64,000 bases of DNA from an uncultured Tateyamaria sp. (lineage in GTDB: Bacteria; Pseudomonadota; Alphaproteobacteria; Rhodobacterales; Rhodobacteraceae): the NCBI RefSeq assembly GCF_947503465.1, contig NZ_CANNDN010000004.1:1-64000 (forward strand), given 5' to 3'. Positions within the stretch are counted from its first letter, which is position 1. Each line of letters begins with the position of its first letter. Shown in pieces: positions 51,103-59,509 of the stretch. The position numbers and the translations under genes were made by a program. The notes beneath the pieces are model-generated. The model did no database searches and had not been told where the DNA came from. It saw nothing but the letters and a program-made list of their open reading frames with translations.

Positions 51103-52932
51103 ATGCGAATTTCAGAATTTCGGATCACGAATTATCGTAATGTACTCGACTCTGGCTGGATCATGACAACCGATGTGACCGCCATCGTTGGGCAAAACGA
51201 AGCGGGTAAAAGCAACCTCTTTGAGGCGCTGTATTGTCTGCATTCCTACGTTGAAACCCGGTACAACCCAGATGAGGATTGGCCAGTTGACGACTGGAAG
51301 GGCAGAAAAAATGCGAAGGGTCAGACAGTTGCACAAGCGTATTTTGAGTTTGACGAAGGCGAGGCCGAAGCGCTGTTTGAATTCGCGACAGAAGTGCCGA
51401 CGGACGATGACGGCTATGAGCTTGAGGTAGCGGCCGCTGCGCCACCAGCTGGGCTTCGCCTTTTCGCCTATCGCAACTATGGTTACCTCACTGGCTTTGG
51501 CCTGCACGATCGGGATGGCAACGCGGTCACACCTGGAGACTTTGGTCTGTCCGAAGACAAGGTATCAGAATGGGCCGGTGAGCATGTACCACGCTTTGTG
51601 CTGATTCAGGATTACGAGTTCTCCGGAGCAAAGGTTGAACTTAACGAGTTGAAACAACGTCTCGAAGCTGAAGGCGGAGAACGTCACAAGCTATCCGTTG
51701 AAGATCAAACAATCCTGATTGTCCTCGATCTTGCGGACCTCGATCTCGACGAGATCGTCAAAAAGGGCGGAGATAGTGAAGGTCGGACACTTCGCCAGTT
51801 CGACACAGTCGCAGCATCCGCATATTTGACAGCTCAATTTCAGAGGCTCTGGAAGCAGAAACGCGTAGACTTCGATATTCGCATTGACGGTGAAACGCTC
51901 AACATCTTCGCAAAAGATCAAGCAATCGGCTTTCCTGTTCGCTTGAACCGCCGTTCAACTGGGTTCCGCTGGTATGTTTCGTTTGCTTGGAAGTTCACCC
52001 ATGCGTCTGAGGGTGAATTCGAAAACTGTACACTTCTTTTGGAAGAACCGGGAATCCATTTGCATTACAGCGGTCAGCGCGACCTTCTGGGCGTCTTTGA
52101 CGATCTTTCTGCGACGAACACAATAATTTACACTACTCACCTGTCGTCAATGGTCGATCAAACTAACCCTGAAAGGGTGCGTATCGTCGAAACCGATAAC
52201 AAGCACCATCTGAAAGTAACGCATGGCGTCGTCAGTAGCCAAGCCGCGCCAATGGCCGTCATTGAAAGTTCGTTGGGGCTGACGGGCGATCTCTCGGGGA
52301 TGCTAGGCAATCGAAAAGTTCTAATCGTCGAAGGCGGCACCGATGCACTTATTCTAAGCAAGCTCTCTAGTCTGTTGACTAAGGGCGGCAAAGAGGGGCT
52401 TTCGGACGAGATTTACATGTGGCCTGCCGAGACTTCTTCAAAGTCTCCAATGTATGCAGCTTTCGCAATAGGTCAGCGTTGGGATGCGGGCGTTCTACTT
52501 GATACAGACGAAGCAGGAAACAAGGCACATGAAAAGATCAAGGCGATGGACCTAAAGGAGTACGCAGATGAAACAGGTCATAATTTTCGTGTCCTTATGA
52601 TTGGAAAGGCGTCTGGCGTGTCGAAGACCGATGTCGCAATCGAGGACTTGTTCCCAGATGAATGGTATCTTGGCTGCGTCAACAGGACCTACAAAATCGC
52701 TATGACACCCGGAGATTTGACACAAGACGGAACCACACTGATCTCTAAGCGGGTTGAAGAAACTCTCAAATCACAGCACAACCGCGAACTGAAAAAGAAG
52801 GATGTCCTCAAGGAGATGCTCCGCGAATTCGACAGTTGGAAAAACGTTGGCGATCTACCTGCTGGCACGGAGACCAATGCCGTGAAGCTGTTCAATAAGA
52901 TCAATGAAGCGTTCGATGTGAAGGCATACTAG
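51103..52932 (+). CDS. OLD-family ATP-dependent endonuclease (ATPase plus TOPRIM)
   Basis: 609 residues. The N-terminal ABC/SMC-like ATPase has Walker A GQNEAGKSN at residues 30-38, Walker B TLLLEEPG with Glu314/Glu315, and an H-loop YTTHLSSMVD. The C-terminal TOPRIM nuclease has VLIVEGGTDALIL with Glu410 and LLDTDEAGNKAHE with Asp467/Asp469, so both catalytic halves look complete. OLD nucleases act in phage exclusion and, with a UvrD-like helicase, in Gabija; no helicase or second gene accompanies this one. GC content and codon use are clearly lower than neighbours. A solitary defence nuclease is the likeliest role. Confidence 0.9.
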   Translation: MRISEFRITNYRNVLDSGWIMTTDVTAIVGQNEAGKSNLFEALYCLHSYVETRYNPDEDWPVDDWKGRKNAKGQTVAQAYFEFDEGEAEALFEFATEVPTDDDGYELEVAAAAPPAGLRLFAYRNYGYLTGFGLHDRDGNAVTPGDFGLSEDKVSEWAGEHVPRFVLIQDYEFSGAKVELNELKQRLEAEGGERHKLSVEDQTILIVLDLADLDLDEIVKKGGDSEGRTLRQFDTVAASAYLTAQFQRLWKQKRVDFDIRIDGETLNIFAKDQAIGFPVRLNRRSTGFRWYVSFAWKFTHASEGEFENCTLLLEEPGIHLHYSGQRDLLGVFDDLSATNTIIYTTHLSSMVDQTNPERVRIVETDNKHHLKVTHGVVSSQAAPMAVIESSLGLTGDLSGMLGNRKVLIVEGGTDALILSKLSSLLTKGGKEGLSDEIYMWPAETSSKSPMYAAFAIGQRWDAGVLLDTDEAGNKAHEKIKAMDLKEYADETGHNFRVLMIGKASGVSKTDVAIEDLFPDEWYLGCVNRTYKIAMTPGDLTQDGTTLISKRVEETLKSQHNRELKKKDVLKEMLREFDSWKNVGDLPAGTETNAVKLFNKINEAFDVKAY

Positions 52933-54904: not shown

Positions 54905-55494
54905 CCGACCGTGAAACTTTGGATGTCTATGCCGCCAAGGCCGGTGAATATGCCGATCTGGTCAAGGACGCGGGCGACGACCCGATGGTGCAACGCTTTG
55001 TCGCCCATGTGCCCGCGGGCGCACCGGTGCTGGATATCGGCTGCGGGCCGGGCTTTGCCGCCGCCGCGATGGCGCAGGCCGGGCTGGAGGCACATGCGTG
55101 GGACCCGGTGCCGGAGATGCTGGATCTGGTGCGCGCGCATCCTGGTGTCACGGCCCGGCAGGCGGGCTATGATGACCTGACGGGCAAGGCCATCTATGCG
55201 GGCGTCTGGTCCAACTTCTCGATGCTGCATACGCCGCTTGCCAAATGGCCGGATTACTTTGCGGCCATCCACACGGCCCTGATACCCCGGGGAATTCTGC
55301 ATTTCGGCGTCAAACTGGGATCGGGCGAACATCGCGACAGCATTGGGCGTCTCTATTCCTACATGACGGAGGATGACCTGACCGATCTGCTGACCCGGAC
55401 GGGTTTTATCATCGACGTCAGCCGCACGGGCGAAGAGGCGGGCCTGTCGGGGGAGGTGGCCCCCTTTATCGTGTTGCAGGCCACCCGTGCCTAG
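54901..55494 (+). CDS. Class I SAM-dependent methyltransferase
   Basis: 197 residues. Motif I is [20 protein letters not shown], then [20 protein letters not shown], and the late beta strands include [20 protein letters not shown] and [18 protein letters not shown]. Starts at ATG 54901 overlapping the DUF3429 stop; ends eight bases into rnhA. Substrate unknown. Confidence 0.9.
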
Positions 55495-55942
55495 ACTGTT
55501 TGCCTATACCGACGGCGCCTGTTCGGGCAATCCCGGCCCCGGTGGCTGGGGCGCGCTGCTGCGTGCCATGGACGGCGATACGGTGATCAAGGAACGCACA
55601 CTGCAAGGCGGAGAGGCGCAAACCACCAACAACAAGATGGAGCTGATGGCGGCCATTTCGGCGCTGGAGGCGCTGGAACGGGCAAGCACCATCACGGTTG
55701 TGACCGACAGCAACTACGTCAAGAACGGGATCACCAGCTGGATTCACGGCTGGAAACGCAACGGGTGGAAGAACGCATCGAAAAAGCCGGTCGCGAATGC
55801 CGACCTGTGGCAACGGCTGGATGCGGCGCAGGCGCGGCATGACGTGACCTGGGAATGGGTGAAGGGCCACGCCGGGCACCCGGAAAATGAACGCGCGGAT
55901 GAACTGGCCCGTGCGGGCATGGCCCCGTTCAAGTCCAAGTGA
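55487..55942 (+). CDS. rnhA: Ribonuclease HI
   Basis: 151-residue RNA-DNA hybrid nuclease. Catalytic Asp9 in [18 protein letters not shown], the Glu in [15 protein letters not shown], the Asp in [15 protein letters not shown], and the last Asp in [15 protein letters not shown] with the preceding WVKGHAGH histidine. GTG start overlapping the methyltransferase stop by eight bases. Often linked to ispH in related genomes, here separated from it by about 14 kb. Confidence 0.96.
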
Positions 55943-56085
55943 CGCAGGGGCATTTCGCGAAAACACAGGCAATTGCCGCTGTTTTCGCCCCCCCTGTCAC
56001 GACAAGTGTTACAGAATTGGCATCCCCTATCCTTTTGTTTTCAAGGCGTTTTCAGGGTCCACACGTCGCGCATCCTCACATCGCG

Positions 56086-56133
56086 CTGCCATTTCCATGA
56101 CAGTTTGTGACTGTTCGGTCCCTTATTGTTACA
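56086..56133 (+). promoter_or_regulatory. Leader element of first small basic protein gene
   Basis: CTGCCATTTCCATGACAG (56086-56103, one mismatch from a perfect inverted repeat), followed by TTTGTGAC and TGTTACA (56127-56133). The same elements recur at the same distance (757 bases later) ahead of the second copy. Likely a regulator-binding region. Confidence 0.55.
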
Positions 56134-56200
56134 GAGCTTTTCCGCTATCTCTTTCCCAAGACGAACGGCCCTACCGGCCCACACGCTAAGGAGAAGAGAC

Positions 56201-56458
56201 ATGAAACTGACAGCTACAAAGACACCGCTTCTGATCGCCGCCATCGCAACCGCCGTGACCCTGACCAGCCTGAGCCCCGCCGCCGCTGGCACCGTCTGGC
56301 AAGGCGCCGCGACAGCGGATGTGGAACAGGCCCAGGTGATCGACGCGAATTTCAAAGCCAAGTTCAAGAAGCACAAGTTTCACGGCGTGAAGAAAAAGAA
56401 ATTCGTGTCGCCGAAGAAAAAGTTCATCACCAAGAAGAAATTCAAGAAGTTCTTCTAA
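56201..56458 (+). CDS. Small secreted Lys/Phe-rich basic protein, copy A
   Basis: 85 residues with a Sec signal peptide (MKLTATKTPLLIAAIATAVT then LTSLSPAAA, cleavage after AAA). The mature ~55 residues contain about 17 lysines and only three acidic residues, ending FVSPKKKFITKKKFKKFF in a repeated KKKF pattern. The ATG follows AAGGAGAAG. It is nearly identical at its C-terminus and leader to the next gene, with which it forms a tandem duplication. No family recognised; a DNA-, polyphosphate-, LPS- or membrane-binding periplasmic polycation is possible but unproven. A terminator follows. Confidence 0.88.
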   Translation: MKLTATKTPLLIAAIATAVTLTSLSPAAAGTVWQGAATADVEQAQVIDANFKAKFKKHKFHGVKKKKFVSPKKKFITKKKFKKFF

Positions 56459-56513
56459 GGTACGGGATCCGTCACACCTCCCTCCCCCCCCCCCCAAGAC
56501 CCCGAGACCTTGA

Positions 56514-56548
56514 AGCGGCCCGCCTGTCCCCCAAGCGGGTCGTTTTCG
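56514..56548 (+). terminator. Terminator of small basic protein gene A
   Basis: Stem around CCCGC (56519-56523) and GCGGG (56535-56539), extended outward by four more pairs with two G-U, followed by TTTTCG. Ahead of it is a run of 12 C (56484-56495). The same design recurs after copy B. Confidence 0.65.
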
Positions 56549-56842
56549 TCTGGGTGGCGTTGTGCGGGGTAGGTTGGGATCGGTCGATGGTCCGGGCGTG
56601 GGCCGCGCGCCGACGCTGTTTTCCGGCCCATCCGCACCACGGCCGGTCGCGCCGGTGGATCACGCGGGCGGTCCAAATCTGTTGCACAGGTCAGGTGTGA
56701 CGTAGGGGCACAACAGCCAAAACCGCCGAAACAGCCCGGAATTCCGGCCCGCCCCACATCGTTTGTTACAAGGAATTTATCAAACAAGATACTGTTTTAC
56801 ATGAATTTTATCCCCGGAAACGCCTGCCCGCATGACGCGACG
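56549..56842. other. Spacer between duplicated small-protein genes
   Basis: 294 bases, no supportable gene. The last 90 bases are AT-rich with a TGTTACA copy (56764-56770) and the hexamers TTGTTA and GATACT that could be promoter-like. The first 190 bases are GC-rich and featureless. Confidence 0.45.
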
Positions 56843-56890
56843 CTGTCATTTCCATGACAGTTTGTGACCGGTTGGTCCCTTATTGTTACA
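56843..56890 (+). promoter_or_regulatory. Leader element of second small basic protein gene
   Basis: CTGTCATTTCCATGACAG (56843-56860) is a perfect 7-bp inverted repeat around TTCC, followed by TTTGTGAC and TGTTACA (56884-56890). It is about 88% identical by eye over 115 bases to the leader of copy A, without indels up to the ATG. Confidence 0.6.
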
Positions 56891-56957
56891 GGCCTTTTCC
56901 GCTATCTTTATTCCAAGACGAACGGCCACCCCGGCCCACACGACAAGGAGAAGAGAC

Positions 56958-57233
56958 ATGAAACTGCAAGCCACCAAAACCCCGCTTTTGATCGCCGCCA
57001 TCGCCACGGCCATCACCGTGACCAGCATCGCCCCTGCCAGCGCCAAGGCGTTCTGGGCCAGCGCGCCCGCCGCCGATGCGGAACAGGCACAGGTGATCGA
57101 CGCCAACTTCAAGCTGAAGCTGAAAAAGCACAGCTTTCACCACGGGTATAAATTCCATGGTGTGGCCAAGAAGAAATACGTGTCGCCGAAGAAAAAGTTC
57201 ATCACCAAGAAGAAGTTCAAGAAGTTCTTCTAA
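56958..57233 (+). CDS. Small secreted Lys/Phe-rich basic protein, copy B
   Basis: 91 residues, paralogue of copy A: signal peptide MKLQATKTPLLIAAIATAIT then VTSIAPASA, mature start near AKAFW. EQAQVIDANFK and the final VSPKKKFITKKKFKKFF are identical to copy A, with a few extra His/Tyr residues (KKHSFHHGYKFHGV) between. The same AAGGAGAAG ribosome-binding site and duplicated promoter leader are present. Terminator downstream. Function unknown. Confidence 0.88.
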   Translation: MKLQATKTPLLIAAIATAITVTSIAPASAKAFWASAPAADAEQAQVIDANFKLKLKKHSFHHGYKFHGVAKKKYVSPKKKFITKKKFKKFF

Positions 57234-57270
57234 ATCCGGGCTTCAGTCACCACTCACGCCCCTCCCCCGA

Positions 57271-57305
57271 ACGGCCCGCCTTTCCCTCAGGCGGGTCGTT
57301 TGCGT
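57271..57305 (+). terminator. Terminator of small basic protein gene B
   Basis: Stem ACGGCCCGCCT / AGGCGGGTCGT (57271-57281 and 57289-57299), 11 bp with one G-U, loop of seven bases, then TTGCGTTT. Homologous in position and sequence to the hairpin after copy A. Confidence 0.8.
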
Positions 57306-57399
57306 TTGGGCACAGGGCAGGCGTGAGGGCGCGTGACCATGCAATATACTGAGCCTGCAGTGATTTTTCGGCACGCGCGGGGCGTTGCCCGCGAGAGAC

Positions 57400-57423
57400 A
57401 CACAGCCCTGTGCAGGGTTGTGT
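57400..57423 (+). promoter_or_regulatory. Inverted repeat upstream of His-rich small protein
   Basis: ACACAGCCCTG (57400-57410) and CAGGGTTGTGT (57413-57423) are complementary at 10 of 11 positions around TG. It lies 90 bases upstream of the ATG and is unrelated to the leader of the other two small proteins. May be a binding site or mRNA hairpin. Confidence 0.45.
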
Positions 57424-57512
57424 CCATGTTGCCCCTTATCGCACCAAACCTGTCGCCCTACCTGGGATGCACGACAAGAGATCACCTCCCGTACACAAGA
57501 CAGGAGACGGAT

Positions 57513-57851
57513 ATGTCTTTGAAAATGACGAAAGCCCCCTTTGCAATTGCAGCCATCGCGGCCGCGATCACCCTGACATCCGCGAGCCTCGCAAAAGCGG
57601 AGGCGTTGGTGATCCAGGCACCTTTGCACGGTGCCGAGGTCGCGCAGGTCGAGCAGGTGGGGTTCAAGATCAAGAAGCACGGTGTGCGCCATCATCACGG
57701 GTTCAAGCACCGCAGTTTTCGCCATCATGGCGTGAAGCGGCACCACCGCTTTCATCACCGCAGTTTCCGCCATCATCGAGGCTTCAAGCATCGCGGATTT
57801 GTGCACCACCCCAAGTCGCGGTCGCGCATCATCATCAAGAAGAAGTTCTGA
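57513..57851 (+). CDS. Small secreted His-rich basic protein, distant paralogue
   Basis: 112 residues. The signal peptide MSLKMTKAPFAIAAIAAAIT then LTSASLAKA is clearly related to those of copies A and B, and the protein ends IIIKKKF like their KKKF tails. The mature part carries about 17 His and many Arg/Lys in near-repeats (GFKHRSFRHH, RFHHRSFRHH, GFKHRGFVHH), suggesting metal or polyanion binding. CAGGAG precedes the ATG by 9 bases. Third gene of the small-protein group. Confidence 0.85.
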   Translation: MSLKMTKAPFAIAAIAAAITLTSASLAKAEALVIQAPLHGAEVAQVEQVGFKIKKHGVRHHHGFKHRSFRHHGVKRHHRFHHRSFRHHRGFKHRGFVHHPKSRSRIIIKKKF

Positions 57852-57856
57852 CAGGC

Positions 57857-58093
57857 TTACTTGCGCCAATGTGTCGGGATGATGATCAGCGCCCCGATGG
57901 ACGATACGATGGCGTTCAGCCCGGGGCTGGAGAATCCGAACCCGAACATCAGCCGCACGAAGTAGAACAGGAATGCCCCGCCGATGCAGATGATGATCGA
58001 TTGCAGGATGCCGTTATGGGTAAAGCGCGTCTTTTCCGACAGGTAGCCGACGATGCCTGCGATGACGACAGTGCCGATGAGGGTGGGAAACAT
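57857..58093 (-). CDS. GlsB/YeaQ/YmgE-type small membrane protein
   Basis: 78 residues with about three hydrophobic segments: MFPTLIGTVVIAGIVGYLSE, then NGILQSIIICIGGAFLFYFV and LNAIVSSIGALIIIPTHWRK. The arrangement and the GILQSIIICIGGAFLFYF-like glycine-rich helix fit the transglycosylase-associated (YeaQ/YmgE) family. GTAGGAG precedes the ATG at 58093. Stress or envelope role by family; function not shown here. Confidence 0.82.
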   Translation of the reverse strand: MFPTLIGTVVIAGIVGYLSEKTRFTHNGILQSIIICIGGAFLFYFVRLMFGFGFSSPGLNAIVSSIGALIIIPTHWRK

Positions 58094-58103
58094 GGTCGTG
58101 CTC

Positions 58104-59009
58104 CTACAGTTTTGTGCCTTTGGGCAGGGGGAGCCCCCGCAGGAACACATCGGCATCCTGCGCGCCTTTGCCTGCCCGTTGCAAGCGGGTGAGCCGGACC
58201 GCGCCCGCCCCGCAGGCAATGGTCAGCGCGTCGTCCAGCGTGGTGCCGGCGGTGCCGCTGCCCGGCGCGAGGTTCGAGCCCAGCACCTTGATCCGGGTGC
58301 CCGCGTGATCGAACCATGCGCCCGGAAAGGGCGACAGGCCACGGATTTGCCGGTCGATCGTGGTGGCGTCCTGCGTCCAGTCGATGGCGGCCTCGGCCTT
58401 GTCGATCTTGTGGGCGTAGGTGACCCCGTTGTCCGGTTGCGGCGTGGCCGTGAGCGTCGGCAGCCTGTCGAGGGTCTGCGTGATCAGGCGGGCCCCCATG
58501 GCGGCGAGCCTGTCATGCAGGTCGGCCGTGGTTTCGGTGTCCCCGATCGGCGCCCGGTCGCGCAGCAGGACGGGGCCGGTATCCAGCCCCGCCTCCATCT
58601 GCATGATGCAGACGCCCGTTTCGCTGTCCCCTGCCATGATCGCGCGGTGGATGGGCGCGGCGCCGCGCCAGCGGGGCAACAGGCTGGCGTGGATGTTGAG
58701 GCAGCCATGGGTGGGCGCATCGAGGATGGGCTGCGGCAGGATGAGGCCATAGGCCACGACGACGGCGATATCGGCGTTCAGCGCCGCAAAGTCGGATTGT
58801 GCGTCGGCGGTGCGCAGGGATGTGGGGTGGCGGACCGGCAGGCCCAGCGCCTCGGCGCGGGTGTGGACGGGGCCGGGCCGGTCCTTCTTGCCGCGCCCGG
58901 CGGGCCGTGGCGGTTGGGTGTAGACGGCCGCGATGTCGTGGCCCGCGCTGTGCAGCGCATCGAGCGCGGGGACGGAAAAGTCGGGTGTTCCCATGAAGAT
59001 CAGGCGCAT
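58104..59009 (-). CDS. fmt: Methionyl-tRNA formyltransferase
   Basis: 301-residue enzyme that formylates initiator Met-tRNA. Catalytic triad Asn105, His107 and Asp143 in [20 protein letters not shown] and [12 protein letters not shown], at positions matching E. coli Asn106/His108/Asp144. [20 protein letters not shown] is the typical start. One base separates its ATG from the (restored) stop of the third deformylase-family gene. Confidence 0.97.
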
Positions 59010-59010
59010 G

Positions 59011-59509
59011 TCACTTGCCCTTTTTCGCGCGGCGCAGCAGCATGTCGCGCTTTACCCGGCCCAGGTTGTCGAAATACATGCGTCCCGCCAGGTGGTCGAT
59101 CTGGTGCTGGACGCTGCGCGCCTCGAGCCCCGAAGTCGCGCCGGTCCCACACGCCCTGATCGTTGAGGAAGCGGATTGTGACGGATTTGGGTCGCGGGAC
59201 CTCGGCGGAGACGCCGGGCAGGTTGGGGCTGGCCTCGGTGCCTTTTACGACCTCGGGGTCCGAGGACAGGATTTCGGGGTTGGCCAACAGCACGCGGCGG
59301 CTGCGGTCGGGGGCGGCATCCACCACCGCGAGACGCAGCATGACGCCGATCTGGGGTGCGGCAAGGCCCACGCCGTGGCCGGGCATGGCGATCATCGTGT
59401 CCACCATGTCGGCCCAGATGGCGCGGATGTCGTCCGTGATCCCGGCCACGTCCGCAGCGGCGGTGCGCAGGCGCTTGTCGGGCCAGGACACGAATGGGCG
59501 GATGGTCAT
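59011..59509 (-). pseudogene. Degenerate, frameshifted peptide deformylase paralogue
   Basis: Third deformylase-family gene in a row. The N-terminal part has motif 1 (GHGVGLAAPQIG, residues 45-56), but motif 2 EGCLS is replaced by EASPN (residues 92-96), so the metal-binding Cys is lost. A one-base shift in the run of four C (59128-59131, GGGG on the coding strand) breaks the frame near residue 127; restoring it gives SVQHQIDHLAGRMYF, where motif 3 HEIDH has become HQIDH (residues 135-139), and a total of 165 residues ending just before fmt. So the catalytic Glu and the metal Cys are both missing. Frame disruption could be true or a sequencing error. A non-catalytic deformylase-like protein is the likely ancestor. 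Confidence 0.85.

Follow-up and report, generated by a model that had tools for sequence, protein, structure and literature searches.

The window, a stretch of 64,000 nucleotides from an uncultured Tateyamaria sp., carries three consecutive small genes (A, B and C) that encode strongly cationic proteins. This locus raises the question of what these proteins are, how widely they occur and how their genes are controlled.

Results

A, B and C form one protein family at a conserved locus

The sequence-only reading of this DNA had placed A, B and C at coordinates that proved right to the base (Table 1), and it had regarded C as kin to A and B. With B as query, a search of the own genome returned A at E 2.7e-33 and C at E 8.1e-7, with no fourth place at E <= 10, and these values exclude chance for the kinship of the three. 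C also matched the family profile at 1.4e-20 (as P0061), C itself being among the 32 query rows of that profile. Searches of A, B and C against Pfam and NCBIfam models gave nothing above chance level, and no PDB chain matched the family. When 68 family members were searched, the Pfam matches were scattered, with no Pfam family in more than two members (best E 0.0031), and no NCBIfam family occurred in more than four (best E 1.3e-4, HxsA4, in one member). These scattered matches appear to track composition. With no convincing match in Pfam, NCBIfam or PDB, the earlier statement that the proteins belong to no recognised family holds, and A, B and C are, judged by their sequences, one protein family without a recognised relative.

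Table 1. Positions of the genes and upstream and downstream elements at the locus, in window coordinates
Feature	Position	Strand	Description
Gene A	56201-56458	+	85 aa, exported-type polycation, ATG start
Gene B	56958-57233	+	91 aa, exported-type polycation, ATG start; 82% identity with the first G011 gene
Gene C	57513-57851	+	112 aa, ATG start; His/Arg-rich diverged paralogue
rnhA (RNase HI-like)	55487..55942	+	Fixed 5' neighbour; stop codon is the left edge of the duplicated unit
Duplicated unit, copy A	55940..56554	+	rnhA stop, promoter, gene A, terminator-like inverted repeat (aligned with copy B)
Duplicated unit, copy B	56698..57310	+	Alignment with copy A
Promoter core of A, GTGAC-N5-GGTCCCTTATTGTTACA	56107..56133	+	Leader alignment and core searches
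Promoter core of B	56864..56890	+	Leader alignment and core searches
-10-like element GCTATCT of A	56144..56150	+	10 bases 3' of the core; position fixed in 17 leaders; presumed -10 role
-10-like element GCTATCT of B	56901..56907	+	Position fixed in 17 leaders; presumed -10 role
Terminator-like inverted repeat after A	56516..56554	+	Repeat family D5; scanner stem 56522-56540
Terminator-like inverted repeat after B	57272..57310	+	Repeat family D5; without a terminator-scanner call
Decayed promoter core before C	57430..57463	+	21/33 core positions
Small membrane protein gene	57857..58093	-	Convergent neighbour, conserved at the locus; start codon 58093 by eye
fmt (methionyl-tRNA formyltransferase-like)	58104..59009	-	Fixed downstream neighbour

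The order methyltransferase, rnhA, family gene, small membrane gene (on the opposite strand) and fmt was kept in 16 congener loci. rnhA lay 5' of the family gene in 15 of these 16, and the contig of G017 stops short of rnhA. Among the locus neighbours (rnhA, the small membrane protein and fmt), none gave a hint of an envelope role. The terminator scan called 5 sites in the region, where shuffled sequence gave 2.2, and this is weak when taken alone. Two further genes in the window were noted. The gene at 59000-59509 (-) is one of three adjacent peptide-deformylase-like genes, and its C-terminal part, with HQIDHL, is out of frame with the start, through either a broken gene or a sequencing error. 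The gene at 51103-52932 (+) encodes an AAA ATPase of 609 aa and of the OLD/AriA/GajA type (in PADLOC, AriA came first at 5.7e-18 and Old reached 7.9e-17) and is possibly a defence or DNA-repair ATPase.

Sequence plan and composition of the family

The family signal peptide is typically M-x-L-x-A-[TS]-K-T-[PA]-L-L-I-A-A-[IM]-ATAVTLTS..PASA. By inspection it is Sec-type, with Lys in the n-region, a hydrophobic core, an AxA site that is conserved in the family, and no Cys. Next comes a short linker, in which a Trp is near-invariant and a few residues are acidic, followed by the block AxVIxANFKxKxKKH, a Lys/His/Arg-rich middle part of variable length, and a C-terminal block that is typically K-K-K-hydrophobic(3)-K-K-[LF]-F. 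C follows this plan (FKIKKH, RSRIIIKKKF), with a His/Arg-rich middle and without the Trp, and in the tree it groups with P0067 and the C-type genes of G011 and the MAG AAFQ58, as a small clade with support 0.94.

We counted the composition of 70 of the 75 proteins downstream of the AxA site, with a simple rule placing the cut at residue 27-31. P0064, P0072, P0074 and P0075 (partial or hybrid) were dropped, as was P0026, which is complete and Phe-ended and has no paired basic residues (KTFF). The predicted mature part had 49-96 residues, with K+R of 14-25 and a net charge (K+R-D-E) of +10 to +21. It contained 2-9 acidic residues (D+E, median 3) and 2-18 His, and both Cys and Met were absent. 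A C-terminal Phe was found in 63 of 70 proteins (64 of 71 with P0026), and two basic residues stood just before the last one or two in 69 of 70 (69 of 71 with P0026). These counts and the Sec-type features agree with the earlier description of small polycations with a signal peptide. Net charge climbed with length (r = 0.65), indicating that the charge is bounded and not constant. Selection may act on the charge of this polycation family.

Uncorrected pN/pS, calculated from 18 sequences (153 pairs, pS 0.5-0.76, C-type genes excluded), was below 1 in every region (0.22-0.51), with its minimum in the ANFK block (0.22) and its maximum in the linker (0.51). By this measure the family gene is under purifying selection. 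AlphaFold2, given 68 of the 75 sequences (without P0026, P0030, P0057, P0064, P0072, P0074 and P0075), produced no fold (mean pLDDT 64.2, pTM 0.21) and placed helices solely at 7-24 (signal peptide) and 79-90 (C-terminus). The low model confidence is a weak sign that the family proteins may be disordered.

The family appears restricted to Tateyamaria

With B alone as query, matches were obtained in 16 of 19 congeners and in 0 of 41 genomes of other genera (17 of 61 genomes when the own genome is included). The sequence-only reading had suggested a search of Rhodobacterales; a family profile was run, and it found the family in the genus Tateyamaria, with matches in 18 of 20 genomes and an intact gene in 17 of 20. 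What matched in G010 (E 0.0057) is a remnant of 48 codons from which the cationic part is missing, and the profile search found no family gene in G012 and G019. Since 3 of the 19 congeners have no intact gene, the function is dispensable. The G010 remnant, at L042 2187-2333, retains a signal-peptide-like start, and both the gene body and the promoter core are gone. A weak profile match at G009:C1:328144-328347 (L040, E 0.0036) lies off-locus, within a 237-codon frame.

The profile was also run on 394 genomes that represent the taxonomic family, roughly one for each genus, with scoring of no more than 13 candidate places in each. Apart from the own genome, the sole match was a weak one in G169. 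This match (E 3.1e-4, profile positions 12-48, in a 717-codon frame) is probably spurious and was taken as chance. A profile search of 5.8 billion proteins gave 75 clusters (90%) at E <= 0.01; every named cluster came from Tateyamaria or from a MAG with the label Pseudomonadota, and unnamed metagenome proteins made up many of the clusters. The contig-level scan returned 10 loci, every one from Tateyamaria, and C alone as query returned 4 proteins, namely C itself, two named Tateyamaria proteins and one unnamed protein. Within about 1.5 kb downstream of rnhA at 16 loci of other genera, no family-like small ORF was seen by eye; the filter used there (small ORFs with a hydrophobic start) was crude, and several Arg-containing ORFs that passed it were deemed spurious. 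As far as searched, the family appears confined to Tateyamaria.

The rnhA tree comprised 19 Tateyamaria genomes (G017 absent) and 6 outgroups, and it is a tree of one short gene with several weak deeper nodes. Its deepest Tateyamaria branch, G014, carries the family gene, and the genomes without an intact gene are nested among carriers: G012 with G019 (0.99; beside G015, 0.98), and G010 with G007 (0.89). This pattern would fit one gain and two losses of the family gene, which is apparently ancestral in Tateyamaria and fixed between rnhA and fmt.

A promoter-like core so far seen only before the family gene

The main new result concerns a promoter-like core before the family gene, which the searches detected at no other gene. 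We aligned 17 leaders, consisting of the own A and B and those of 15 congeners; the two C-type genes and G017 (contig end) were excluded. The core was exact in 14 of the 17 leaders, with 1, 1 and 2 mismatches in G009, G014 and G016, respectively. CTATCT (CTACCT in G014) stood at a single fixed position 3' of the core in all 17 leaders, and the distance from the core to the ATG varied between 55 and 90 bases. The fixed spacing of core and CTATCT together with the variable distance to the ATG would fit a promoter better than an RNA element.

The search for the core allowed up to 3 mismatches in 22 positions. Each of the 16 congeners that carry an intact gene had one site and the window genome had two (A and B), and none was found in G010, G012 and G019, the three congeners without an intact gene. 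The 15 congener sites with a readable gene lay 55-90 bases 5' of that gene, and the 16th was at a contig end (G017). The backwards control gave 0 matches in the genus. When the 394 family genomes were searched, only the own two sites were found, and 392 genomes of other genera had no site; the backwards control gave one match there (G179).

A decayed core was present before C, and 1 of 2000 mononucleotide shuffles was as good. With its promoter decayed, C is probably active under other conditions. In G011 the C-type gene had no recognisable core (16 of 33 positions, with 373 of 2000 shuffles as good). A sigma-70 scan gave 0 sites above threshold, with 0.5 expected in shuffles, so that it carries little weight. 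The promoter may require an activator. A second TGTTACA was also observed at about -190, upstream of the core, in 11 of 12 readable A/B-type leaders, with CGTTACA in the twelfth (L011).

Candidate regulators of the promoter

TGA pairs in the leader prompted us to examine CenR control. The motif tested was a TGA-N8-TGA direct repeat upstream of -35. With a matrix from 31 published sites, no site conserved in place was found in the leaders, and this candidate was rejected. The conserved TGACAGTTTGTGAC has a spacing of 10, not 11 (-6.2 bits on the CenR matrix), and the best sites of A and B scored 4.5 and 8.6 bits (equalled in 39% and 5% of 150-base stretches). Sites in the G009 and G014 leaders scored high, at 11.0 and 10.3 bits (1.0% and 1.7% of stretches), so single family members could be CenR targets. 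The tolQ control had a CenR site of 10.1 bits. Upstream of tolQ, TGACGCCGAAGTGATAG or a near variant, which resembles the published CenR motif, was observed in 18 of 20 aligned regions (L071-L090; not in L071 and L080). The CenKR regulon of Rhodobacter sphaeroides, according to PMC9275681, has mostly envelope or exported targets with activator sites 5' of -35; unlike that regulon, the family leaders have no place-conserved CenR site, whereas tolQ of the genus has one. CenR was the best named regulator candidate, and its site is not a conserved feature of the leaders.

For control by Pho and by ChvI, no convincing box was seen in the leaders. The Pho box is CTGTCAT-N4-CTGTCAT, and the 17 leaders had 3-6 mismatches of 14; the phn promoters of the genus yielded no usable local Pho box. 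The ChvI motifs given in PMC9731502 are TTGC-N3-GCAA (Caulobacter) and GCC-N8-GCC (Sinorhizobium). The former had 2-3 mismatches of 8 in all 17 leaders, and the latter, a motif too short to judge, had 1-2 mismatches of 6. An RNA element in the leader was rejected after two chance-level Rfam matches, which scored 16.3 and 12.5 bits and so stayed below the gathering scores of 40. A link to phototrophy was likewise rejected, as pufM was above the cut-off in 20 of 20 genomes and cannot separate carriers from non-carriers; G005 had two copies above the cut-off.

The duplication of A and B includes the promoter

The sequence-only reading had proposed that A and B arose by a tandem duplication including the promoter, with 115-base leaders that match at about 101 positions without indels. 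We counted exactly 101 of 115 equal positions and no indels, and the next-best 115-mer in the window had 51 matches to the A leader. Repeat families D1, D2 and D5 hold A and B in register across the promoter, the gene and the 3' repeat, and the unit alignment begins at the rnhA stop codon and ends past the terminator-like repeat. Moreover, TGACGYAGGGGCA, the sequence at the rnhA stop, is found at 55940 and again at 56698, where it opens the B upstream region, indicating that the duplicated unit (55940 to about 56554) is larger than the leader. The proposed duplication was thus confirmed and reaches beyond the leader.

The tails of A and B had been described as identical, which is correct for the last 17 residues and incorrect directly before them, where A has KKKF and B has KKKY. 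The last 63 bases of A and B had 60 matches, compared with 55 (A) and 54 (B) against G011, and the first 174 bases had 127, compared with 132 (A) and 135 (B) against G011. Between A and B, pS was 0.10 in the tail (1.0 of 9.7 sites) and at least 0.41 in the other regions. A recent homogenisation of the A and B tails would fit these values, which are no more than suggestive in so short a stretch with biased codon choice.

On a single contig of the MAG AAFQ58, consecutive tags mark three members of the family, the B-like P0003, the A-like P0015 and the C-like P0069, which suggests that the A/B duplication may predate the window's species. Tree supports are low, at 0.50 for A with P0015 and 0.65 for A with B at a node excluding P0003. 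By tags, the order in AAFQ58 is B-A-C, compared with A-B-C in the window genome. Among the 17 intact genomes, the locus holds one family gene in 15, two in G011 and three in the window genome. With one gene in most genomes and with A, B and C diverged, dosage amplification, which had been offered as the outcome of the duplication, is doubtful as a general feature.

Discussion

We propose, with a confidence that stays somewhat short of even, that the family, so far seen only in Tateyamaria, consists of disordered envelope polycations and that an activator acts at their private promoter. Cleavage of the signal peptide would take place at the AxA site. The mature chain, about 49-96 residues long and mostly disordered, would reside in the periplasm or at the outer membrane. 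Its positive charge would bind anionic envelope polymers, such as lipid A/core phosphates and acidic polysaccharide, and possibly acidic proteins that have misfolded, and the conserved basic/hydrophobic helix at the C-terminus would contribute membrane contact. The polycation would steady the envelope under a particular stress, which the activator would sense at the private promoter. In the window genome, the gene is duplicated to A and B, with C as an additional divergent paralogue. This envelope chemistry is not specific evidence, because any strongly cationic exported peptide would bind anionic polymers.

A one-gene circuit private to the genus is a more demanding claim, and we consider it possible and rather unlikely as a whole. 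A dedicated activator would act on an element present once per gene copy, and an envelope polycation would be its sole product. Lys, Arg and His would be swappable within a charge band while the KKxF helix is kept, and gene and promoter would have arisen together at the base of Tateyamaria and been lost together.

By analogy, the family may work like Asr of Escherichia coli (NF033636, basic and repetitive according to the model name), which PMC10746267 describes as a small, periplasmic, intrinsically disordered chaperone that contributes to outer-membrane integrity. The predicted layout of the family, periplasmic and disordered, would correspond to the one described there for Asr; its members are basic by count, have a signal peptide by inspection and gave a low-confidence, unfolded AlphaFold2 model. 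An anti-aggregation chaperone of this mode, a disordered cation whose net charge prevents aggregation of unfolding envelope proteins under acid or other stress, is nevertheless improbable in our estimate. No convincing Asr-model or Pfam match was found across the members: 1 of 68 reached the NCBIfam Asr model (E 0.039), which reads as composition, A, B and C did not reach it, and Pfam gave none to E 0.1. Membership in Asr is unsupported. Moreover, an acid-response promoter element was not identified, and Asr is not known to carry a C-terminal KKxF. The proteins could also be secreted antimicrobial peptide precursors directed against competitors, with the diversity of the middle part reflecting an arms race. 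This we judge less probable than the chaperone, although the proteins are cationic with aromatic residues and a basic/hydrophobic C-terminus, and the 75 clusters, many of them metagenomic, have a middle of variable length. The weak match of C to lactococcin 972 (TIGR01653; E 0.1) scored 12.9 bits, below the curated cut-off of 32.1, and was seen in C only. However, the single locus is vertically kept, no immunity, export or processing gene was recognised at it, pN/pS is below 1 in all regions, and the C-terminal decapeptide is conserved.

His-rich repeats of the HHGHK type in several members and in C (17 His past the predicted signal peptide) bring a periplasmic Zn/Ni/Cu buffer into consideration, as do weak composition matches to ZrgA (1 of 68) and to a Ni/Co efflux model (4 of 68, best E 0.02). 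A core role in metal binding appears weakened, because A, like P0015, has only 2 His while K+R is at least 14 in all 70 counted; in addition, Cys and Met are lacking, and no adjoining metal transporter or regulator was recognised. We rank this role below the antimicrobial one, as an improbable reading. Some members share a His-rich low-complexity middle with HxsA/HxsA4 (NF038313, TIGR03979) and BRANT (NF047414) proteins. Unlike those proteins, the family has no maturase recognised at its locus, and no HxsA-type or BRANT model was matched across the 68 members (HxsA4 in 1, E 1.3e-4; HxsA in 1, 0.029; BRANT in 3, best 0.02). Charge and signal peptide would likewise suit an extracellular matrix or nucleic-acid binder, holding eDNA or acidic exopolysaccharide in a biofilm, and Tateyamaria is a surface-living genus. 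With neither an outer-membrane secretion route nor a biofilm gene at the locus recognised, it is the least probable of the roles weighed here.

The family offers a clean case of a taxonomically restricted signal-peptide protein that is nevertheless kept in place under purifying selection and whose promoter is equally private. It gives a compact and testable model of how a putative envelope protein specific to one lineage arises, and is lost, together with its control element, and of whether bulk charge combined with a brief C-terminal motif can be a target of selection.
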